Source: a virus. From it: DNA of 30,117 nt. Below are positions 3,217 through 29,152 of this stretch, one piece after another. The position numbers and the translations under genes were made by a program. Every line of letters begins with the position of its first letter. Positions within the stretch are counted from its first letter, which is position 1. The DNA lies in the IMG/VR virus record IMGVR_UViG_3300027970_001598, positions 1 through 30,117 of that record. One strand, written 5' to 3'. The notes beneath the pieces are model-generated. The model saw nothing but the letters and a program-made list of their open reading frames with translations, made no database searches and was not told where the DNA came from.

Positions 3217-4428
3217 ATGTCACAACAACTATTAGAAGGCCGCTGGGATGAAACCAAAGAAGCCCTTCTTGAAGGCCTAAAAGGCAACAAGCGTACCAGC
3301 ATGAACGTGATCCTGGAGAACACACGCAAGTATTTGAAAGAAAATGCAAGCAGTGGTTCTACTGGTTCTGGCAACATTGCCACACTTAACCGTGTGATTC
3401 TGCCAGTTATCCGTCGTGTTATGCCAACCGTTATTGCTAACGAGTTGGTTGGCGTTCAGCCAATGACCGGTCCTGTTGGCCAGATCCACACCCTGCGTGT
3501 GCGTTATGCTAACACAATGAACGACACCAGCACTGCTCAAACCAGTACTGCTGCCGGCCAGGAAGCATTGAGCCCATTCTTGATCGCTCAAGCATATTCT
3601 TCAGCATCTAGCGTCACAGCTGGTGTTGTTGATCCAACACAAACTATCTACAGTGGCGCTAACACATCAGTGCTTGAAGGTTCCGGCGGTCGTCAGATCT
3701 CTGTGCAAATCTTGAAGCAAGCTGTTGAAGCTAAAACTCGTAAGTTGCAAGCTCGTTGGACATTTGAAGCTGCTCAAGACGCTCAAGCAATGCATGGTAT
3801 CGACGTAGAAGCCGAAATCATGGCTGCTTTGGCACAAGAGATCACAGCTGAGATTGACCAAGAGATCCTGTTGAGCCTGCGCTCATTGGCCACAACTGAG
3901 TACACATACAACCAAGCTACTGTATCTGGTACAGCTACATTTGTTGGTGACGAACACGCCGCTTTGGCAGTTCTGATCAACCGTGTTGCTAACTTGATCG
4001 CCCAACGTACACGTCGTGGCGCTGGTAACTATGCTGTGGTTAGCTCTGCTGCTCTTACAGTTCTGCAAAGTGCTACAACCAGCGCATTTGCACGTACTAC
4101 AGAAGGCACTTTTGAAGCACCTACAAACACCAAGTTTGTTGGTACTCTGAACGGCGCAATGCGTGTGTTTGTTGATAGCTATGCTAGCGATACTACACCT
4201 GTATTGGTTGGCTACAAAGGTAGTTCAGAAGCTGATGCTCCTGCATTCTACTGCCCTTACATCCCCTTGATGAGCTCAGGCGTTGTATTGGATCCAACTA
4301 CATTTGAACCAGTGGTCAGCTTTATGACAAGATATGGCTTCATTGAATTGACCAACACTGCATCATCTTTCGGTAATGCGGGCGATTATGTCGGGGAGAT
4401 AGCGGTGAGTAATTTGTCGTTCTCGTGA
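3217..4428 (+). CDS. 23: Major capsid protein gp23
   Basis: 403 residues; it forms the hexameric lattice of the head. A T4-family signature is visible at residues ~65-100 (VIRRVMPTVIANELVGVQPM, then GPVGQIHTLRVRY), matching the T4 gp23 region containing GVQPM and TGQ. A likely gp21 cleavage site is Leu-Lys-Glu at residues 40-42, followed by the flexible NASSGSTGSG stretch; further L-X-E sites lie at residues 5-7, 17-19 and 32-34. The C-terminal region (SFMTRYGFIELTN...) resembles the family's end. It has a strong AAGGAG and is followed by a terminator. It is shorter than T4 gp23 (521 residues), so peripheral insertions are probably missing. Confidence 0.95.
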   Translation: MSQQLLEGRWDETKEALLEGLKGNKRTSMNVILENTRKYLKENASSGSTGSGNIATLNRVILPVIRRVMPTVIANELVGVQPMTGPVGQIHTLRVRYANTMNDTSTAQTSTAAGQEALSPFLIAQAYSSASSVTAGVVDPTQTIYSGANTSVLEGSGGRQISVQILKQAVEAKTRKLQARWTFEAAQDAQAMHGIDVEAEIMAALAQEITAEIDQEILLSLRSLATTEYTYNQATVSGTATFVGDEHAALAVLINRVANLIAQRTRRGAGNYAVVSSAALTVLQSATTSAFARTTEGTFEAPTNTKFVGTLNGAMRVFVDSYASDTTPVLVGYKGSSEADAPAFYCPYIPLMSSGVVLDPTTFEPVVSFMTRYGFIELTNTASSFGNAGDYVGEIAVSNLSFS

Positions 4429-4545: not shown

Positions 4546-5292
4546 ATGAAACCTTATACCTATCTAATCAAACATCGACCTTCTGGTAAAGTATACTATG
4601 GATATCGTTCTGCTAATAAGACAAAACCAGCTGACGATCTCTGGAAAATATATTTTACTAGCAGTCCTAAAGTTCAGCAGTTGATTGAAGAAACTGGCGC
4701 AGATAGTTTTGATGTAGAAATCCGTAGAGTGTTTGAAACTAAAGAACAAGCAAGCGCCTGGGAAACACAAGTTCTAAAACGTTGCAAAGTATTAGAAGAT
4801 GATCGCTGGATCAATCAAAATATTGCAGGATACATTGTGCCTACTGAGGAAAGCAGAAAGAAGATTAGCGACTATCACAAAGATAAGCCTAAGACGGACG
4901 AACATAAACAAAATTTAAGCAACTCACAAAAAGGAAGCAAGCGTCCGTGGTCTAAACAAAATCTTCCAACAGATACTAGTGGCGAAAACAACGGAATGTT
5001 TGGCAAGCATCATTCAGACGAAGCTAAGAAAAAAATTGGAGAGAAAAACAGAGTTCACATGCAAGGCGAAAACAATCCTATGCGTAGAGTGGAGTGGACT
5101 GACGAGCGACGAAAAGCAATGGGGGATCGTGCTCGAGGTACCAAATGGACCCAAGAAGCAATTGCTGCTCGATCAGAAAAACTGCGAGGTCAAACAAGAC
5201 CTAAACTCTACTGTGATCACTGTGACAGACACATAGCAGTAGGATGGTTTCACAGACACGGTGATAATTGTCAAAGTATAAATACTGCATGA
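4546..5292 (+). CDS. GIY-YIG homing endonuclease with NUMOD3 repeats and C-terminal zinc finger
   Basis: 248 residues. The N-terminal GIY-YIG nuclease fold shows Y4-T-Y-L, Y17-Y-G-Y-R21 (GIY and YIG elements with the following Arg), the phage-type block DDLWKIYFTSS (30-40) and the helix Glu at E73 in AWETQVLKRC, the usual metal ligand. The middle carries NUMOD3-like DNA-binding motifs (GENNGMFGKHHSDEAKKKIG, and GENNPM...DERRKAMG). The end has a Cys2-His-Cys finger (C223, C226, H236/H238, C242). Such free-standing enzymes spread by cutting cognate phage DNA. I chose ATG 4546; an AGGAGA lies about 28 bases upstream, too far for normal use, and no closer in-frame start follows it. Flanked by terminators on both sides. 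Confidence 0.85.
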   Translation: MKPYTYLIKHRPSGKVYYGYRSANKTKPADDLWKIYFTSSPKVQQLIEETGADSFDVEIRRVFETKEQASAWETQVLKRCKVLEDDRWINQNIAGYIVPTEESRKKISDYHKDKPKTDEHKQNLSNSQKGSKRPWSKQNLPTDTSGENNGMFGKHHSDEAKKKIGEKNRVHMQGENNPMRRVEWTDERRKAMGDRARGTKWTQEAIAARSEKLRGQTRPKLYCDHCDRHIAVGWFHRHGDNCQSINTA

Positions 5293-15136: not shown

Positions 15137-18100
15137 ATGGCTATAATTAAAACACCTGGCGCTGGCGTTTCGCCTTATGAAACAACCGCTGATGTACCTA
15201 CTACACCTACTACAGGTGCTAATACAGCGGTGTTTGTGTCTGGGCAAGCAGCATTAAATAGTTTGATTACAAGCGGTCAACCCGGGGTGTTTGAAGGAGC
15301 CAATGTTACTATTAACCTTGAAGAACAAAGTTTCAGCACTACCAATCAAGTCACTGCCACTACCAACTATCCGTCAGGTAATACAGGAGAGATACAATAT
15401 AATTCAGGTTTTGAAAGTTTTGCCAGCGATGCTTTTTTTACCTACGCCAACGGCAATGTTATAACACCAGGTATACGCACCAACAATTACTTATATGCTA
15501 ATGGAGCACCATTTTTAGCTGGAGGCAATGCTGCTATTGGCAATTTTGTGTTCACTGGCGATAACATGACCATTAGTCATGCCAATAGTGCATTAAGCAT
15601 AATTGGTAATGGAACTGGTGATATAAATATTTCTGCTAATAGTAACACTTGGGTATTTGCCGCAGATGGTAATCTAACATTCCCTGGTGCAATCACAGGC
15701 GCAGGTAATGTACAGGCCAATTATTTCTTTGGCAATGGTTCACAACTTACAGGTATTGATTCTGCGGCCATATCAAACGGCACCAGCAATGTGCAAGTAT
15801 TCAATAATGGTAATGTCACGGTCAGTGTGGCGTCAAATAATATAGCAACATTTGCAACAACTGGATTGTTAACAACAGGATTAATTTCTAGTACAGGAAA
15901 TGTACAAGCAGCTGGATTTACTTACGCAAATGGTCAACCGGTAGCAGGATCTGGTGCACAAGGCACAACTGGTGCTCAGGGCACAACTGGCGCTCAAGGC
16001 ACAACTGGCGCTCAGGGCGTACAAGGTGTTGAAGGCTTACAAGGTATAACTGGTGCTCAAGGCACAACTGGCGCTCAAGGCACAACTGGTGCTCAAGGTA
16101 CAACTGGTGCTCAGGGCGTACAAGGTGTTGAAGGCTTACAAGGTATAACTGGCGCTCAGGGCACAACTGGCGCTCAGGGCGTACAAGGTGTTGAAGGCTT
16201 ACAAGGTATAACTGGCGCTCAAGGCACAACTGGCGCTCAGGGCACAACTGGCGCTCAGGGCGTACAAGGTGTTGAAGGCTTACAAGGTATAACTGGCGCT
16301 CAAGGCACAACTGGTGCCCAAGGTACAACTGGCGCTCAGGGCGTACAAGGTGTTGAAGGCTTACAAGGTATAACTGGCGCTCAAGGCACAACTGGTGCCC
16401 AAGGTACAACTGGCGCTCAGGGCGTACAAGGTGTTCAGGGTGTTCAGGGTGTTGAAGGCCTTCAGGGTGTGCAAGGTGTACAGGGTGTGCAAGGTATACA
16501 AGGTGTACAAGGTATTCAGGGCGTACAAGGTGTTGAAGGCCTTCAGGGTGTGCAAGGTGTACAGGGTGTGCAAGGTATACAAGGTGTAACTGGCGCTCAA
16601 GGTGTGCAAGGCGTACAGGGTATTCAGGGAGTACAAGGCGTTGAAGGCCTTCAAGGCGTGCAAGGTGTACAAGGAGTTGAAGGCCTCCAGGGTGTGCAAG
16701 GTGTACAAGGTACACAAGGTGTACAAGGTGTACAAGGTGTACAAGCTGCGCAAGGTACACAAGGTGTACAGGGTGTGCAAGGTGTGCAAGGTACACAAGG
16801 TGTAACTAGTGCTCAGGGCACAACTGGCGCACAAGGCACAACCGGTGCTCAAGGTACACAAGGTGTACAAGGGCCAACGCCTGCTGTTGCAGCAGCATTC
16901 AATGTGTGCGGAACCAATAACATTGTAAGTTGTCTTGGTGGTGCAGGTGGTACTGGCACCAATAATTTCTTTGCTGGTGAATGTGCTGGCAGTTGCAATA
17001 CCACCGGCAACCACAACACGTTTATTGGTACCTATGCTGGTTTCTGTAATATCACTGGCAGCAACAACTTCTTTGCTGGTCAGTGTGCCGGTCGTCTCAA
17101 CACTACCGGATCAACAAATATCTTTGTTGGATGTAATTCAGGTTGTGCAGTAAACACAGGTTGTAGTAACACAATCATTGGTTCAATAGTTGGTACAGCT
17201 GGGTTATGCAACACAGTCGTACTGGCAGCAGGTAGCACAGAACGATTGCGAGTAGATTCAACTGGTTTATCTATCAATGGATCACCATTCCCTGCTGTAG
17301 ATTTGTCGGCTATCATGCAAGATGTAATACCTGCGATTAATGGTGTCTATGATATTGGTACAGAGGCATTTGCATGGTATAACGGATATTTTACCAACAG
17401 TTTAGTGATTAATAGCACTTCACTAACCGGCACTGAAGATGGAATGATTTTGGTAGATGCAGATACCATTGTCACCAGTGCTGATATTATAGCAGAGTCT
17501 ATACTGTTTACAGACTTATTCATTACAGACAACATGATCAGACCCTTGGCTACTCCATTGTATGGACTAAGAGAAGTCATAGTGGACGGTGGTTTGCACA
17601 TTATGAGTGAAGATCCAGCGTATTTGAGACTAAGTCAAGAAATTTCACCTATCACAAATGATTATTCCGTACTAGATACATACGGAAGTGAAGGAATGTT
17701 GCGCTTTAATCCTGTAACTAAACAGTTTGAAGGGTACAGCAGCACAGCCTGGGAGCCATTTGCAACAGCTGGTTCAGTTTCTGTGTTTGTGAAAGATACT
17801 AATGTCTTAACTTCCATATCTGGTAACAATTCAAGCACTGGCACCAACAACGTCTTCTTTGGTGCCTGTGCTGGGTTTTGCAACACTACAGGCAGCAATA
17901 ATTTCTTTGCTGGTAAATGTGCTGGATTTTTTAATACCACCGGTAGCTGTAACATTTTCATTGGTCTCTATGCTGGTTACTGTAATAGTGGCCGTTACAA
18001 CAACTTCTTTGGTGCAGGTGCTGGCGCACTCAATAGTGGCTGGTTCAACAACTTCTTTGGTTTAAATGCTGGCCTTTTAAATAGTGGTTGTGACAACAAC

Positions 18101-19825
18101 TTCTTTGGTTTAAATGCTGGCCTTTACAATAGTGGTTGTGACAACAATTTCTTTAGTCGCAATGCTGGTTGCAGCAATACCACTGGCTGTAACAACAACT
18201 TCTTTGGTTCAGGTGCTGGGTTAAGTAACACCACTGGCACCAGCAATAACTTCTTTGGTCTGAGTGCTGGTGCCTGCAACACCACCGGTGTCTTCAACAA
18301 CTTCTTTGGTTCAGAGGCCGGTCTTTGCAACACTATTGGCAACTACAACAACTTCTTTGGCACAGCGTCTGGCCGATTCAATACTACCGGCTGTAGAAAC
18401 AATTTCTTTGGCCCAAGTGCTGGCCTCTGCAACACTACTGGCAGCTATAACAACTTCTTTGGTAGCTGTGCTGGTTGCAATAACATAACAGGATCCAGCA
18501 ACAATTTCATTGGTCAGGATGCTGGACTTTGTGCTACCGGCGGCAACTGGAACAACTTTATTGGTTCAGGTGCTGGTTTATGCAACACCACCGGCAGCCT
18601 CAACAATTTCTTTGGTCTGAGTGCTGGTTCTCGCAACACCACTGGCAGCAACAACAACTTCTTTGGAAACAGTGCTGGTTCCAATAATACCACTGGCAGC
18701 TATAACACCTTTATTGGTGCTTATGCTGGTAGTTCAAATACCACTGGCAGCTATAATACCTTTATTGGTCTCCGCGCAGGTCTCTGTAATACTACCGGTA
18801 GCAACAACTTCTTTGCTGGTCGGTGTGCTGGTTACAACAACACTACTGGCAACTACAACTTCTTTGCTGGCGCATGTGCTGGATTCTACAACACTACTGG
18901 AAGCCACAACACGTTTATTGGTGCCTGTGCTGGATACAAAAACACCACCGGCAGCAATAACTTCTTTGTTGGGTGCTATGCTGGTGCCTGCAACACCACT
19001 GGCAGTCACAACAACTTCTTTGGTTTAGGTGCTGGTTCGTGTAATACAACTGGCAGCAACAACACGTTCATTGGTTCAAATGCTGGTCGCAATAACACCA
19101 TTGGTATTGCCAACAACTTCATTGGTGCCTATGCTGGTTTTTGCAACACCAGTGGCAGCAACAACAACTTCTTTGGTCCTAGTGCTGGGACATACAATAC
19201 CACTGGCAGCAATAACTTCTTTGCTGGGTTCTGTGCTGGTGCCTGTAATACCACCGGCTGCCATAACACGTTCATTGGTTTCTGTGCTGGTTACAGAAAC
19301 ACCATTGGCAGCAATAACTTCTTTGCTGGGTTCTGTGCTGGTTTTTGCAACACCACTGGTACTAACAACTTGTTTTTTGGTTGTAATTCTGGTGTTGGTA
19401 CATTTGGTCTTGCAAACATTACCACAGAAAGCAATAGAATCATCATGGGCAATTGTTTACATGCCTGTGCTCAGATTCAAGTTGCCTGGACAGCAGTGTC
19501 TGATATTCGTGACAAGTGCATATTTGGTAGTGTTCCACATGGTCGTGGATTTTTACAAAAAATCAATCCAGTTAAGTTTGCATTCAAAGACCGAAACACT
19601 GGCTGTTTAACTGACATAGTTGGCAAATATCGTTATGGATTCTCTGCACAAGAAATCCTAGCAGTTGAAGGTGACAAACCAGTCATAGCCAGCAATGAAG
19701 ACCCAGACAAACTACAGCTGACTAGCGATTATCTAGTACCAGTTTTGGTAAATGCTATCAAAGAACTAAGTGCTGAATTGGATGCACTGAAAGAAAGAGT
19801 AGCATCGCTGGAATTAAAATCTTGA
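15137..19825 (+). CDS. Giant tail fiber / adhesin B, paralog of fiber A, with S74 chaperone
   Basis: 1562 residues. The N-terminus [17 protein letters not shown] and residues up to ~190 match fiber A, so both probably dock to the same virion site. Order: shared N-terminal part including one WxFxxDGNLxFP motif (~residue 171-183); collagen-like stalk 273-581; three or four NTTG repeats; a distinct middle domain (~675-895) containing [17 protein letters not shown], a phrase like those between repeats in phage fibers; about 30 NTTG repeats (~905-1420); S74 chaperone beginning SDIRDK with predicted self-cleavage before Ser-1455; coiled-coil end [10 protein letters not shown]. Unlike fiber A there is no added tip after the coiled coil. 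Good AAGGAAA upstream of the chosen ATG. Confidence 0.9.
15953..16879 (+). repeat. Collagen-like Gly-X-X repeat of fiber B (103 triplets)
   Basis: 309 residues in G-X-Y register, nearly twice as long as in fiber A. The first half alternates [12 protein letters not shown] with GVQGVEGLQ blocks. The second half is mostly GVQ, GIQ, GTQ and GLQ, with many exact short DNA repeats. Two Gly positions are replaced: Ala near 16744 (GVQ-AAQ-GTQ) and Ser at 16808-16810 (GVT-SAQ-GTT), the latter at the same place as in fiber A. Confidence 0.93.
17845..19395 (+). repeat. NTTG/FFG/AG 51-base repeat array of fiber B
   Basis: About 30 in-frame units near 17 residues, consensus [17 protein letters not shown], following a short first set of three to four units at about 16960-17130. 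Codon use is uniform (AACAACTTCTTTGGT recurring). Cys is again frequent at the two fixed places. The array ends at the beta-rich linker before the S74 domain. Confidence 0.9.
19784..19825 (+). repeat. Left member of a direct repeat flanking the AT-rich glycan cassette (fiber 3' end)
   Basis: The last 14 codons of fiber B ([13 protein letters not shown] and stop) recur, slightly decayed and one codon shorter, at 25222-25260. In between lie the six genes from 19854 to 25218. Confidence 0.75.
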
Positions 19826-19853
19826 ACAAAAATAATTCTGATAAAAAAGTATA

Positions 19854-20543
19854 ATGAAAAAAAATGATTTTGATCAACTTAAAAATTCTTGGAATACATA
19901 TGGAAAAACTGAACCATTTTGGGCAGTTCTAACAAGCGAAAATTTCAAACAACATAATCTAAATGAAAGTGAATTATCTAAATTTTATCAATCAGGTAAA
20001 CATACGATTGACAGACTTGAAAAAATATTAAATCAACATCAATCTACATTCGAGGATAAATTAGTTTTGGATTTTGGATGCGGGGTAGGCAGACTTACCA
20101 AACCCTGCTTGGAAATTTGTAAGAAAATTTATGGTTTGGACATTGGCCAATCTTATTTAGATATTGCAAAAAAAACAGTTCCCACCGGAGAGTTTTTTTT
20201 AGTAGACAATTTTAACAAATTACCAGATCTTCCATCCAATCCTGATATTATTTACAGCATAATAACACTTCAACACAATAGACCAATGTTGATGAAATTA
20301 TATGTATTTTTATTGCTTAAATCTTTGAATAAATATGGAATAGCACTATTGCATATCCCATACAAAGTTAATAATTATATTTCTCATAATGACAACCACC
20401 ATAGAATGGAAATGCATTTTTTAGAAAAATCTGAAGTTAGAAAAATAGTTAATACTGTTGGCTGTCAAATATTAGACACAGTTGAAACAAAGTATTGTGG
20501 AGAAAGCATTTTTGACTGCATTTATGTGATTAGAAAAATATGA
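19854..20543 (+). CDS. Class I SAM-dependent methyltransferase
   Basis: 229 residues. Motif I is VLDFGCGVGRLT (residues 71-82), the glycine-rich loop that binds S-adenosylmethionine; the acidic end of the next strand is Asp-96 in YGLDIGQS; IIYSIITLQHN (132-142) fits the post-III region of the Methyltransf_11/25 type. The substrate cannot be read from sequence. It is the first gene of an AT-rich cassette and overlaps the next glycosyltransferase by 4 bases (ATGA), indicating translational coupling, so a sugar O-methyltransferase is a reasonable guess. The ribosome site is weak. It starts 28 bases after the fiber B stop with no terminator seen, so it may be read through from the fiber gene. Confidence 0.82.
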   Translation: MKKNDFDQLKNSWNTYGKTEPFWAVLTSENFKQHNLNESELSKFYQSGKHTIDRLEKILNQHQSTFEDKLVLDFGCGVGRLTKPCLEICKKIYGLDIGQSYLDIAKKTVPTGEFFLVDNFNKLPDLPSNPDIIYSIITLQHNRPMLMKLYVFLLLKSLNKYGIALLHIPYKVNNYISHNDNHHRMEMHFLEKSEVRKIVNTVGCQILDTVETKYCGESIFDCIYVIRKI

Positions 20544-22084
20544 TTCCAAATACATTATGGCAAACCTGGAAAACAAAAGAAATACCAGTTTCTTTAAAAC
20601 AACAGTGTGATTCCTGGAGTTTTAGTAATCCACAATTATCCAGGAATTTGTTTAACGACAGTGATTGTGACAAGTTTATCCTAGATAATTTTGGTGAGGA
20701 AGTGCATATGTTATATGTTTCGCTTCCTCAACCAATTATGCGAGCTGATTTTTGGCGGTTAGCTGTGGTTTACATAAATGGTGGTTATTACTCAGACTTA
20801 GATATCACATGCACTAAACAACTTTCATCATTTTCAAATTCATCAGCTGAGATTGTGTTGATGAAAGAGCTTGATAACATTGCCAATTTCTTTTTTGGTG
20901 CAACGCCAAAACATCCAGTTTTAAAATTGGCACTGGATTATATGATCGAAGAAGCAAGGTCAATCACTGATAAAGAAACACAGTCGTATGGCATGCATAG
21001 CCTTCACCGTGCTGTTCGAGAGCACTACTCAGTGATAGGAACTGACTTTCCTAACAATCAACATGTTCAGATTTTAAACAATGAACAACTCAAAGCTGAC
21101 CGCATTCTTATTCACAGCGCAGCAAGTATTATGAATACTTCAGCCGACTATACTTCTTGGCGAGCCACTGATAAAGTCATGCAAGATAAAAGATCACATG
21201 CATGCAACGTTTTATTTTTTACTACTTTCAACGATAACGGGTATGATTTATATGGTAAGACGTGGATTGAAACTTTCGTAAAAATTGCCAATTACTATCC
21301 ATCAATAAAGGCCAAGATCTATTACGAAGGCCGCCGGCCGCCAATTATGCATCCTAATATTACCTATGTTAGTTTCACCAAAGAGATTCCTTATCATAAG
21401 GTGTGGAAAGATCAATTGCACAAAAGGTCAAATCACGACGACTACGTGAAGACTATGATTGAACGATTCAGTTACAAATCATTTGTTATTCAAGATGTTT
21501 TAAACAAACACACCGATGATTATCTAATTTGGCTCGATGGTGACTGTGTATTCAAGGCAGCAGACTACAGCAACTTTCCTAAGAATTTATTGGGTGATAA
21601 GTTCTTGGCATGTCAGGTTGAAGAGAATCACGATTTGAACCACGTTGAAAGTGGTATCTTAATTTTCAACGGTAAACATCCTGATACCCAAAGATTCAAC
21701 GAAAGATTCATTAAAAACTATACATTTGAAGAGCTTCTTCCTATGGGTCAACCCTACGATGGATTTGTTGTGTTTAGATCACTATTAATGTCTGGTCTAA
21801 AATATGTAAATCTCAATGATGGTTATGGTCGCGGCGGCATTCAATCTGATCCAAATTGCACATTCCAACATCCAGATATCAAGGTCAAGTTCATTCATAA
21901 CATTGGATGGACAGGAAAACATCAATACGAAAACTGGGAAAAAGTTTTTGATAACGACGATATATTCAAAAAGGTAAAAGGATTTTTATTTGGTCAATCA
22001 ACAGTGACTATTGCTCATCGCAAAAAAGTCAACAACGAGAAGTTAAAAAACCTATTACAAAAAAGAGCTAGTATTAAAAGATGA
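20540..22084 (+). CDS. Two-domain glycosyltransferase (GT32-like plus second GT-A-like domain)
   Basis: 514 residues. The N-terminal half is a Gly_transf_sug (GT32-like) domain: IPNTLWQTWKTKEIP, the RADFWRLAVVYINGGYY block and the metal-binding DXD as SDLDITC (Asp-86, Asp-88). The second half (~residue 220-514) begins ACNVLFFTTFNDNGYDLYGK and holds its own acidic motif, IWLDGDCVF (331-338), followed by VESGILIFNG and a long C-terminal part, consistent with another GT-A transferase. Two active domains in one chain would allow two successive sugar additions, which is inference. The start overlaps the methyltransferase stop by 4 bases. The gap after it to 22173 is 88 bases with nothing recognisable. 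Confidence 0.83.
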   Translation: MIPNTLWQTWKTKEIPVSLKQQCDSWSFSNPQLSRNLFNDSDCDKFILDNFGEEVHMLYVSLPQPIMRADFWRLAVVYINGGYYSDLDITCTKQLSSFSNSSAEIVLMKELDNIANFFFGATPKHPVLKLALDYMIEEARSITDKETQSYGMHSLHRAVREHYSVIGTDFPNNQHVQILNNEQLKADRILIHSAASIMNTSADYTSWRATDKVMQDKRSHACNVLFFTTFNDNGYDLYGKTWIETFVKIANYYPSIKAKIYYEGRRPPIMHPNITYVSFTKEIPYHKVWKDQLHKRSNHDDYVKTMIERFSYKSFVIQDVLNKHTDDYLIWLDGDCVFKAADYSNFPKNLLGDKFLACQVEENHDLNHVESGILIFNGKHPDTQRFNERFIKNYTFEELLPMGQPYDGFVVFRSLLMSGLKYVNLNDGYGRGGIQSDPNCTFQHPDIKVKFIHNIGWTGKHQYENWEKVFDNDDIFKKVKGFLFGQSTVTIAHRKKVNNEKLKNLLQKRASIKR

Positions 22085-22172
22085 ATCCAACATATATAAG
22101 ATTTAAAAAACTTGGGTAAGTCATTGGGATGAAAAATAACACGAAGCATTTTAAAATAGACAGAATCAAATT

Positions 22173-22955
22173 ATGAAAATTTTACCAACATCTCTAGAAC
22201 CAGTGGACACACCTACCCGTAGTCATTTAATTCCAAAGGTCATATACCAGACATGGAAATCTAATAATCTGACAGATTACTTGCACGATTGTGCTTATAC
22301 GTGGATAAGTAAAAACCCTGATTATAGATATGAGTTTTTTGATGATGCTAGGTTAGAAAAATTCGTGCATGACTTTGATTGTAGCAATTTTACGTTTACT
22401 CGTGACGATATGTTAAGAGCATTCAATAGCTATGCTCACCCAGTAGGCAAGGCTGATATATGGCGGTATTTTGTAATATATGCCAATGGTGGAGTGTATA
22501 TGGACATTGATACAAAGTGTGCTACACCTTTAAGTAAATACGTGGATGACACAGACACGTATGTTACTGGTATTGATCCAGCGAGAGGCATACATCAATG
22601 GGGTATTATCATGAGCGCAAAGCACCCATTTATGAAACACACAATTGAAAACGCCATAAAGTGTACGCTTACTCGCACAAGAGTACCGGGCACCGAGAAG
22701 GAAAATGATAATTTAGAAGTATACACCGGCCCTTGGGTTATGAATTATAGTATTAAGAAACTTTTAAATATACGACCAGAAAGACACTTTGGTGCTGGCA
22801 CCTCTACTGTAATGATTGAAGGAAGCAAATATAGGATAAAGATACTTCCAAAACCTCTCATGAATGGTCATGTTGGCTTTGACCATGCAAGATATCTGCA
22901 AAATTTAAGAGATCATAATATACCTTATTGGTCAAATACTCGGCTATGGAAGTAA
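22173..22955 (+). CDS. GT32-like glycosyltransferase (DXD sugar transferase)
   Basis: 260 residues. Clear Gly_transf_sug features: IPKVIYQTWKSNNL (20-33), the acceptor-side helix, GKADIWRYFVIYANGGVY (92-109) and the DXD motif MDIDTKC (Asp-111, Asp-113), which binds the metal and nucleotide sugar. The C-terminal part contains IMSAKHPF and GPWVMNYS, typical of the family. The family includes mannosyl- and galactosyl-type enzymes, and donor specificity cannot be inferred. It is closely similar in layout to the gene at 23631. Its stop overlaps the next start by 10 bases. The DNA is AT-rich with few GC-ending codons compared with the head genes. Confidence 0.87.
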   Translation: MKILPTSLEPVDTPTRSHLIPKVIYQTWKSNNLTDYLHDCAYTWISKNPDYRYEFFDDARLEKFVHDFDCSNFTFTRDDMLRAFNSYAHPVGKADIWRYFVIYANGGVYMDIDTKCATPLSKYVDDTDTYVTGIDPARGIHQWGIIMSAKHPFMKHTIENAIKCTLTRTRVPGTEKENDNLEVYTGPWVMNYSIKKLLNIRPERHFGAGTSTVMIEGSKYRIKILPKPLMNGHVGFDHARYLQNLRDHNIPYWSNTRLWK

Positions 22956-23647
22956 CTAAAAATATATTTCAGATATTCATCTCAGAGAATGATAAGTTGT
23001 CTAACTTATCAAATGAATTAATTGAGAAAACAAATAAAGTTAAATCTGTGTATAGCGATTATAATTATACACTGTATGATAACTCAATGCTTTTAAACTT
23101 CTTATCAAGTTTTGATAAAGAGACTTTAAACAGTTACAACACGATTAAGCCATACGCATTTAAAGCGGACTTAGCCAGGTATTGTTTACTGTACGAATAT
23201 GGAGGATGGTACTTTGATATTAGTTTAGCCCCCGAACACAAACTGGAGTTTGACAATTCTGTAGATGCTTTAATAATTAAAAATCATCAAATAAACACTA
23301 TTGAAAACTGCGTCATGTACTTTAAACCAAAAAGTCAATTTTTGCTTGATGCAATCAACCAAATAAACTTTCATGTGTTGAGAAGATACTATGGATATAT
23401 ACCGCTACACGTGACTGGTCCTGGATTACTTACAAGAATTTATAATAGATATAATACTGATTATTTTAGTAACTATAGATTTGGATCATTTGTTGACCTT
23501 TCAATTCAACAGTTTGTGTGTAAGTACGATGATAAGATATTTGCTAGATTTAAGTTTCCTGAAATAAGAGGGCTGAGTCATTTAGGTGCCACGGGTACTA
23601 ATAACTATGAAACAATGTGGAGGAATAAAGATGTTTACAAGCACTAA
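22946..23647 (+). CDS. GT32-like glycosyltransferase with altered DXD (DIS)
   Basis: 233 residues from ATG 22946 (a TTG at 22928 would add six). It keeps the family plan: NIFQIFISEN at the start, a Y-x-Y-x-L-Y-D strand, the conserved FKADLARYCLLYEYGG (72-87) and WYFDIS (88-93). The second Asp of the DXD motif is Ser (Asp-91, Ile, Ser-93), whereas the paralogs on both sides have DID. The later NCVMYFKPKSQFLLDAI and HVTGPGLLTRIY stretches fit the family. It may be a diverged active enzyme, as some GT-A proteins tolerate variation here, or a non-catalytic partner. It overlaps both neighbours, so the three genes form a coupled set. Confidence 0.78.
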   Translation: MEVTKNIFQIFISENDKLSNLSNELIEKTNKVKSVYSDYNYTLYDNSMLLNFLSSFDKETLNSYNTIKPYAFKADLARYCLLYEYGGWYFDISLAPEHKLEFDNSVDALIIKNHQINTIENCVMYFKPKSQFLLDAINQINFHVLRRYYGYIPLHVTGPGLLTRIYNRYNTDYFSNYRFGSFVDLSIQQFVCKYDDKIFARFKFPEIRGLSHLGATGTNNYETMWRNKDVYKH

Positions 23648-24539
23648 TACAATACCAACATCTATACCTCCTAGGATCTCTAACGTTAGTTACCAAAAGA
23701 TTCCAAGAATAATACACCAGACGTTTAAAAAAAACACGGTGACTGATATTTTTTATCATAACGTCAGATCCTTTATAGACTTAAACCCCGAGTATCAATA
23801 TGAGTTTTACGATGACGAACGGGTGAAACAATTTATTGAAAATTTTGATTGCACTGAGTTTGCTTTTGATAGAAACACACTTATAAAAGCATATAATGAT
23901 ATAAAGCCGGGAGCAGGTAAAGCTGATATCTTTAGGTATCTTGTGATATACGAATTAGGTGGAGTCTATATAGACATTGACTCACGATGTGTTAAGCCTT
24001 TATCAAATTCAATAGATAGTGATTCAGACATAGTAACTTGTGTGCAAGGCGTTGCATACAATCACGACAATCACGAAGATAGATGGTATCACCTTTTTCC
24101 ACAGTGGATATTAATGTATTCTCCTAAATCAATCATAATGAAGGATATAATTGAAGTGTGCATAAACGCCGTGTCAACTAGAACTCCGGTTCCAAATTCA
24201 GAGAGTTGCAAGAATACGCTGGAAAAATATACTGGTATATGTTGCAGTAACTACGTATATAGATCAATCTTCAAATTTCGAAGCGTGGAACAAGAGGCCC
24301 GGCTAACACCAAGAAAATTTAATATAAAATACAAGGGTAGGCAATATAATATTTCTATCTTACCGTGTGTACCACACTTGTTTAACGATAGCATTATAAG
24401 CAAGTATATAGGAAACGTCAGCATAAATCAAGCTACATACACAAAAGAAGAAGCAATGATTCACATTGATACTTACCAATGTGAATTAATTAAAAATGAT
24501 TCCGTACACTGGCTGAATCAGTCTGTTTTTAATGATTAA
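23631..24539 (+). CDS. GT32-like glycosyltransferase (DXD sugar transferase)
   Basis: 302 residues starting MFTSTNTIPTSIPPR; GGAGG 8 bases upstream supports this ATG over upstream in-frame starts. IPRIIHQTFKKNTV (24-37), YEFYDDERVKQFI (57-69), GKADIFRYLVIYELGGVY (96-113) and the DXD motif IDIDSRC (Asp-115, Asp-117) define the Gly_transf_sug fold. It closely parallels the gene at 22173, so the two arose by duplication; the DIS variant lies between them. The ~40 residues past the usual C-terminus (KEEAMIHIDTYQCELIK...) are extra. It overlaps the previous gene by 17 bases and the following sulfotransferase start by 8 bases. Confidence 0.87.
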   Translation: MFTSTNTIPTSIPPRISNVSYQKIPRIIHQTFKKNTVTDIFYHNVRSFIDLNPEYQYEFYDDERVKQFIENFDCTEFAFDRNTLIKAYNDIKPGAGKADIFRYLVIYELGGVYIDIDSRCVKPLSNSIDSDSDIVTCVQGVAYNHDNHEDRWYHLFPQWILMYSPKSIIMKDIIEVCINAVSTRTPVPNSESCKNTLEKYTGICCSNYVYRSIFKFRSVEQEARLTPRKFNIKYKGRQYNISILPCVPHLFNDSIISKYIGNVSINQATYTKEEAMIHIDTYQCELIKNDSVHWLNQSVFND

Positions 24540-25218
24540 TTTAATGAAAAAAGTATATGAGTTTTGGGGAATGCAGCGTAGTGGAAATCACGCTATTTTA
24601 AACTGGCAACTGGAAAATTTTTGTGACGACTCACAAAAACAGCCTATACTGGATGACTTTTGCTTTCATACCAGCAATACTCTTTTCTTAAATGCAATTA
24701 TGTTGAATGATAAAAAAAATATCACTGATAGCGATCTAAGAAAATGCTTAAAATTAAAATTTAATAACATAATACTTTCTTACTAAGATTCAAATTTTGA
24801 TAAAAGTTTGGGTCTACCATGTAAGCAGTTTGTTATCATGCGAAATCTTGAAAATTTAGTTGCAAGTAGAATGTATGGAGTGGATCAAGAGTGGCCAGTA
24901 GACGATAATTTTTTTGAAATGTGGGAAACATATGCAAGAAGCAACATACCCAAGATTCATTACGATAAATGGTTAGTTGATAAGTCATATAGAGATTCCA
25001 TTGCGCAAATGTTTAACACTGATAATAAAGACATTACTAGTATAATGAGCGTAGCAGGAGGTGGATCATCCTTCATTGGCATCAAATTAGATAAACCAGA
25101 AAATTTATTAACAAGATACCAACAGATAGATATACCACCAGATATAAAAAAGAAAATTATGTATTATGGTGAACGCAATCCAGAATTTTGTAATCTTGCA
25201 CAACTGAAGGACATTTGA
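24532..25218 (+). pseudogene. Sulfotransferase-like gene interrupted by one in-frame stop
   Basis: One frame encodes a complete small P-loop sulfotransferase-like protein of about 228 residues except for TAA at 24784-24786 (codon 85). Before it: YEFWGMQRSGNHAILNW (9-25), the phosphosulfate-binding loop of PAPS sulfotransferases. After it: FVIMRNLENLVASRMYG (the 3'-phosphate-binding R and S), IHYDKWLVDKSYRD and AGGGSSFIGIK, all typical of this family. The stop lies in LSY-stop-DSN where relatives commonly have SYED, so a single G-to-T change of a Glu codon explains it. Options are a recent pseudogene, readthrough, two separate chains, or a sequence error. It overlaps the glycosyltransferase before it and ends next to the fiber relic. 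Confidence 0.75.
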
Positions 25219-25221
25219 TAT

Positions 25222-25260
25222 GCGCTGAAAAAAGTGGCATCGCTGGAATTTAAATCTTGA
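25222..25260 (+). repeat. Relic of a tail fiber 3' end
   Basis: Thirteen codons read ALKKVASLEFKS and stop, against [13 protein letters not shown] and stop at the end of fiber B (19784-19825). The bases GCATCGCTGGAATT are identical, and TAAATCTTGA differs from the fiber copy in one base. No longer open frame leads into it: upstream the match is lost within a few bases. It lies directly after the broken sulfotransferase and marks the right border of the AT-rich cassette. Confidence 0.75.
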
Positions 25261-25309
25261 CATTACATGACCAAGGCTATATAGTTGTATTAGTTCCCAG
25301 GGAAATCTG

Positions 25310-28186: not shown

Positions 28187-29152
28187 ATGAAAGACATGAT
28201 CAAAGAAATTATACGTGAAGAAATGATGAAGACTATGATGAAGAAATACTACTTCATGTCCGGGTTACCTCGGTCTGGTAGCACTTTGCTTTCTGCAATC
28301 TTGAATCAAAATCCCAGAATGCACTCAGGTCCAAGTTCACCTGTGGTGGGGATCATGCTCACCCTTGAGAATGCAATTGCCAATGATGAATTATTTTTAG
28401 CTTACCCAAAACCAGAACAGGCAGGCAAAATAATTAGCAATGTGATTGAAAACTATTACTCAGACGTGGATAAACCAGTTATCATTGATAAAAATCGTTC
28501 TTGGGTGAATCGCATGCATTACATTCCTGGATACTTTGGCGTTGAACCAAAAATTCTTTGCCCAGTCAGAAACATTGATGAAATTTTGACATCATTCATT
28601 ACTATGTATCGTAGAAATCCATTTGATGGAAACAGCAAAGTTAACTTCATGGATGAGATGTTGATCAAAAGTAACATACCACTCAATGATGAAAATAGAT
28701 GTGAACTCTTGGCCAGCCCCAATGGTATACTTGGACAAAGTTACAATGGCATTCGTCAAGCAATCATGGAAGGCAGGGGAAAACAAATTCATTTCATTGA
28801 GTATGATGATTTGACAAATAATCCCAACGAGACCATGCGTAAGATTTATGAGTTTCTGGAAGAAGAATATTTTGAACATGATTTTTCAAACATACAGAAC
28901 ATTCATAAAGAACACGATGCAGAAGTGTATGGTCTTGCAGACATGCACCATGTGCGTGAAACTTTAGAAAAAGTTTCTGCAGACCCAGTGGAAATTTTAC
29001 CTGAAACAACAATTAAAAAATGTGAAGGTGCAGAGTTCTGGAGAACTCTGAATGAAGTTTATGATGAAACGCAGGAGTTGGATCTTGATGAAACATCAGC
29101 AGATGTAGATGAATTGTCAGATCAAAATGATACAAAACTAATAGGAGAATAA
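28187..29152 (+). CDS. PAPS-dependent sulfotransferase (Sulfotransfer_3-like)
   Basis: 321 residues. Such enzymes transfer sulfate from PAPS to a hydroxyl or amine, here probably of a glycan. The 5'-phosphosulfate loop is FMSGLPRSGSTLLSAIL (23-39); the 3'-phosphate motif is CPVRNIDEILTSF (125-137) with R128 and S136; FIEYDDLTNNPNETMRKIYEFL is the usual third block. Family resemblance is strong and the length usual, with an 18-residue Met/Glu/Lys-rich N-terminal extension before KKYYF. The acidic C-terminus (~residue 290-321, DETQELDLDETSADVDE) is extra. It belongs to a different sulfotransferase group from the broken gene at 24532. It lies 12 bases after the GT9-like gene and 1 base before the next ORF. 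Confidence 0.88.
   Translation: MKDMIKEIIREEMMKTMMKKYYFMSGLPRSGSTLLSAILNQNPRMHSGPSSPVVGIMLTLENAIANDELFLAYPKPEQAGKIISNVIENYYSDVDKPVIIDKNRSWVNRMHYIPGYFGVEPKILCPVRNIDEILTSFITMYRRNPFDGNSKVNFMDEMLIKSNIPLNDENRCELLASPNGILGQSYNGIRQAIMEGRGKQIHFIEYDDLTNNPNETMRKIYEFLEEEYFEHDFSNIQNIHKEHDAEVYGLADMHHVRETLEKVSADPVEILPETTIKKCEGAEFWRTLNEVYDETQELDLDETSADVDELSDQNDTKLIGE

Follow-up and report, generated by a model that had tools for sequence, protein, structure and literature searches.

A 30,117-base linear virus record, from a marine-type phage that encodes a T4-like major head protein (phrog_138), here called the window because it is the whole stretch of DNA that was analysed, contains a candidate sulfotransferase gene that is cut in two by an in-frame TAA. 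The question raised by this locus is whether the stop marks damage to the gene, a codon that is read through or recoded, a boundary between two working halves, or simply a wrong base in the contig. The original prediction, made from the letters of the window, left a nonsense mutation, readthrough and stop reassignment or suppression side by side.

One stop codon in an otherwise open frame

Translation of positions 24532-25218 on the plus strand gives 84 codons, the TAA as codon 85, and a further 143 codons that run to a TGA (Table 1). The TAA is the sole interruption. A 143-codon stretch 3' of it would stay open by chance with a probability of about 3e-6 at the window's base composition, and the remaining five frames of that stretch carry 4-19 stops, so the TAA is a single break in one coding sequence. 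The start position of the closest homologue makes ATG 24544 (MKKVYEFWGM..) a likelier start than ATG 24532. Family columns are matched on both sides of the break, with GMQRSGNHAILNW and N54 before it and R104..N108..AS112, W147, Y153-R154, the G/S-rich segment 176-181 and R195 after it. The window protein keeps 12 of the 13 strongly conserved residues before the TAA and all 14 after it, which equals the record of intact members. Homologues and predicted fold strongly support the claim that sulfotransferase motifs continue in one frame across codon 85.

Table 1 Positions of the interrupted gene and of neighbouring features in the window
Feature	Positions	Strand	Remarks
Tail-fibre gene, 3' end	19782..19825	+	End of intact gene 15137-19825; left partner of direct repeat
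Rest of cassette	19854..24539	+	Methyltransferase and four Gly_transf_sug (DXD) glycosyltransferase genes; all frames uninterrupted
Sulfotransferase, N-terminal part	24544..24783	+	PSB / P-loop-like segment GMQRSGNHAILNW; alternative start ATG 24532
In-frame TAA, codon 85	24784..24786	+	Aligned column is Glu in 29/29 homologues
Sulfotransferase, C-terminal part	24787..25218	+	PB segment R104..N108..AS112, G/S-rich segment, R195; terminated by its own TGA
Orphan relic of fibre-gene 3' end	25220..25262	+	About 43-45 bp, 84% identical to 19782-19825; right edge of cassette
Promoter-like TTGACA-17-TATAGT	25257..25285	+	-35 box includes the relic fibre stop TGA; good -10 element

A sulfotransferase family with an invariant glutamate

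The TAA was read as Glu for folding purposes only, and the AlphaFold2 model of this read-through protein reaches a pLDDT of 86.2 and a pTM of 0.85. Its best PDB matches in Foldseek are sulfotransferases, and VIA-align returns Z 13.7 over 201 residues to the ST domain of a Synechococcus olefin synthase (4gox) and Z 13.6 to 4gbm, with SULTs and TPSTs ranking next in the VIA-align and Foldseek searches; a sequence profile search of the PDB finds mouse SULT7A1 (5x2b, E 0.0018). These results predict a PAPS-dependent sulfotransferase fold for the read-through product. Membership in this superfamily is recognized by a catalytic Lys or Arg in the PSB loop and a Ser in the PB helix, which follows a beta-strand (PMC11625862). 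The window protein carries GMQRSGNHA near the N terminus, where R16 is invariant in 30 members, and R104, N108 and S112 are invariant or near-invariant, with a strand at 98-103 and a helix at 106-115 in the model. The predicted fold, R16 and S112 all bear out the name sulfotransferase given by the original prediction. Cytosolic SULTs, TPSTs and the CurM and olefin-synthase ST domains (4gbm, 4gox) share about 200 residues of the predicted fold with the window protein (Z 13-13.7), and the superfamily has in common an N-terminal PSB loop and a PB segment with an invariant Arg and a near-invariant Ser; the window family differs in that identity in structural alignments is only 8-12% and its loop carries an arginine (RSGNHA).

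The family was first recovered with the pattern RSGNHAI.NW and later by profile searches, which brought together several viral contigs and 27 bacterial contigs; intact homologues encoded by a single ORF come from 25 bacterial and several viral contigs. Family members occur in cyanobacteria, in roseobacters and other bacteria, and in viruses. The top bacterial match, from the single-cell genome of Prochlorococcus sp. AG-442-B03 (L052; 1e-22), is the best-scoring homologue overall, with 37% identity over 184 columns, and forms the sister row to the window protein in a tree with moderate support (89/81). Unlike the window gene, it is uninterrupted, encodes 235 aa and lies on a bacterial contig, where it adjoins transporter and sugar-nucleotide genes. 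The split gene's nearest known homologue is picocyanobacterial, its tree placement being tentative because of long branches. The viral homologues L003/L050, L004, L005/L048, L006, L049 and L051 belong to the same family by sequence, and a Hokovirus HKV1 protein (A0A1V0SH11) does so by fold and 28% identity; the fetched ones are only about 22-27% identical to the window protein and are uninterrupted wherever they can be read.

No model in Pfam (PF00685 and PF13469 included, at their curated cut-offs) or NCBIfam matches any of 30 family members, so that this sulfotransferase family, with its RSGNHAI.NW motif and invariant Glu, is missed by all current models of both collections. Matches of the window protein in PHROGs are at chance level, as are those of the split gene in the GenBank phage collection, where no relatives were found, and literature searches returned no paper on the gene or its family. 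Scans of IMG/VR with peptide patterns, with profiles and with a degenerate pattern that bridges the stop recovered no relatives beyond the members that are 22-27% identical. An intact version in close relatives, for which the original prediction recommended a search, was not found; the intact homologues are distant, the best at about 37% identity.

The column occupied by the stop is Glu in every one of the 29 homologues that cover it, typically within the motif S-[YFL]-E-D, and is one of ten invariant positions in an alignment of window 24532-25218 with 29 homologous loci (A4). This count, which upholds the expectation of Glu at codon 85, rests on the larger alignments and leaves out an initial five-sequence alignment in which some rows are shifted by one residue at this site. 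Glu likewise occupies this column in four additional members, which come from 400 sampled genomes of the Prochlorococcus family. The catalytic base in the superfamily is a His or Glu. In the model, Glu85 lies at the end of strand 79-85; its invariance, and its location ending the strand before the PB segment, suggest that it may be the catalytic base.

A gene of the same sulfotransferase family in a picocyanobacterial-family genome (L085:1350-2420) is broken twice in frame, by a TAG and by a TAA, and is otherwise open, while its relative L086 is intact. The stops in L085 indicate that members of this family decay elsewhere too.

A cargo cassette behind the tail-fibre gene

The split gene is the final gene of a block (19854-25218) that sits in a 5.4-kb cassette (19826-25262) between the tail-fibre gene and the conserved gene 25310. 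In the nearest syntenic relative (L013), which is 91% identical to the window downstream, the cassette is missing and the fibre gene terminates 51 bases ahead of the gene-25310 homologue. A homologue of the split sulfotransferase occurs in none of 41 syntenic loci (contigs with a gene-25310 homologue) and in none of 11 syntenic records searched whole. This absence from syntenic loci, together with the lack of the cassette in L013, shows that the block is an inserted, dispensable cassette. Relatives have either no insert at the cassette site or other cargo, and a similar relic lies behind different cargo in L009. In this group of T4-like phages, cargo cassettes insert behind the tail-fibre gene and leave a short fibre-gene relic. 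In L008, L009, L013 and L039 the homologous gene is preceded by a layout matching that of the promoter-like element, with the fibre or relic stop inside a TTGACA box, and this -35 box may explain why the relic is retained after insertions.

Among the neighbouring cassette genes, 23586 yielded no relatives, and the glycosyltransferase gene 20540 has three (L093-L095), none with a sulfotransferase beside it. One of these, L095, contains a methyltransferase remnant just ahead of the gene-20540 homologue (3741-3872; 54% identity, residues 185-228), which suggests that the cassette methyltransferase and this glycosyltransferase move together and decay.

A second sulfotransferase gene (28187-29152; PF13469, PF00685, phrog_27463) is intact, unrelated by sequence to the split one, and belongs to a block conserved in syntenic relatives. 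A GIY-YIG / NUMOD3 homing-endonuclease-like gene of the SegE type (4549-5292) lies directly behind the major head gene.

Origin of the stop codon

We consider it likely, with room left for other readings, that the TAA is a nonsense substitution at the invariant Glu of an accessory cargo sulfotransferase gene, that the product is inactive and that the lesion is young. A PAPS-dependent sulfotransferase gene, accessory to the phage and carried in a glycan-modification cassette inserted beside the tail-fibre gene, would have been struck by a single nonsense substitution at the invariant glutamate codon; the intact enzyme would have sulfated a glycan. The product would now be an 84-residue fragment (80 residues from ATG 24544) that retains only the N-terminal PAPS-binding loop, and it is probably inactive, since the 3'-phosphate-binding half is missing; full-length sulfotransferase would not be made. 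The change appears recent when set against the pace at which phage genes decay, a judgement drawn from the lack of other damage in the gene and not from a dated comparison with a close intact relative.

A sequencing, assembly or consensus error, with a single false base in the contig and an unbroken gene in the actual phage population, would leave exactly one substitution at an invariant residue in a gene that is otherwise perfectly kept, and the window comes, as a fragment, from a collection of viruses derived from metagenomes. We regard this as unlikely, although it is the alternative that deserves most attention: 20 other genes of the window were counted and all are uninterrupted, nothing in the rest of the contig points to a high error rate, and its alignment with the 91% identical L013 contains no frame-breaking indels in genes, gaps that are not a multiple of three falling only at alignment ends or between genes. 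The same 20 genes leave next to no room for a reassigned code in which TAA specifies an amino acid, a reading for which the one in-frame TAA is the sole indication. Thirteen of them terminate with TAA, six with TGA and one with TAG, and none contains an internal TAA; this ordinary stop usage contradicts reassignment and sustains the original view that general recoding is unlikely. The accompanying statement that other genes end in TAA or TGA holds for 19 of the 20 and fails for the one that ends in TAG.

Some full-length enzyme could be made if the TAA is read through, in a programmed or leaky manner, or is suppressed by a tRNA; this would fit the retention of every strongly conserved downstream residue, as well as a hairpin predicted to start directly 3' of the stop. 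That hairpin is weak (z -1.98, with 10 of 200 shuffles folding equally well), and a stop at the codon-85 site occurs in no homologue. Suppressor tRNA genes, which the original prediction proposed seeking, are unsupported: no tRNA of any kind was found in the 30-kb window, a partial phage genome, or in 20 syntenic loci, barring one marginal tmRNA call. TAA suppression would moreover be costly, as more of the counted genes end in TAA than in any other stop. We therefore hold readthrough or suppression to be improbable, and somewhat more doubtful still the idea that the TAA is tolerated through low-level, hairpin-aided host readthrough, with traces of full-length enzyme keeping the downstream half under selection.

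Two separately translated halves might instead form a working split enzyme, with reinitiation at TTG 24808, from which a 136-aa ORF extends, or at a later in-frame ATG. This seems very improbable. The matched region is free of stops in all 30 homologues examined, each being uninterrupted between the two halves, and no family member with the halves as two genes was found among the homologues matched, the opposite of the pattern that the original prediction had named in advance as evidence against it, namely relatives in which the halves are always separate genes. The stop also deletes the invariant Glu, a restart at 24808 drops adjacent residues too, and each half would hold one of the two PAPS-binding segments. 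Among the mechanisms listed at the outset, a nonsense mutation fits best, reassignment conflicts with the data, and readthrough finds no support beyond the weak hairpin.

A nonsense-mutated gene is also what the family comparison describes, with homologues that are one uninterrupted ORF and a window gene that has an in-frame stop. The parts of this locus worth keeping are a sulfotransferase family that Pfam and NCBIfam models miss and the site behind the fibre gene where cassettes insert; the split gene itself is ordinary, as loss of phage accessory genes by point mutation is common. Phage pseudogenes that arise through point nonsense mutations in accessory genes are a known kind, and they likewise carry a single in-frame stop and are preserved in other respects; set against them, the sole distinctive feature of the window gene is that the codon struck is that of an invariant Glu.
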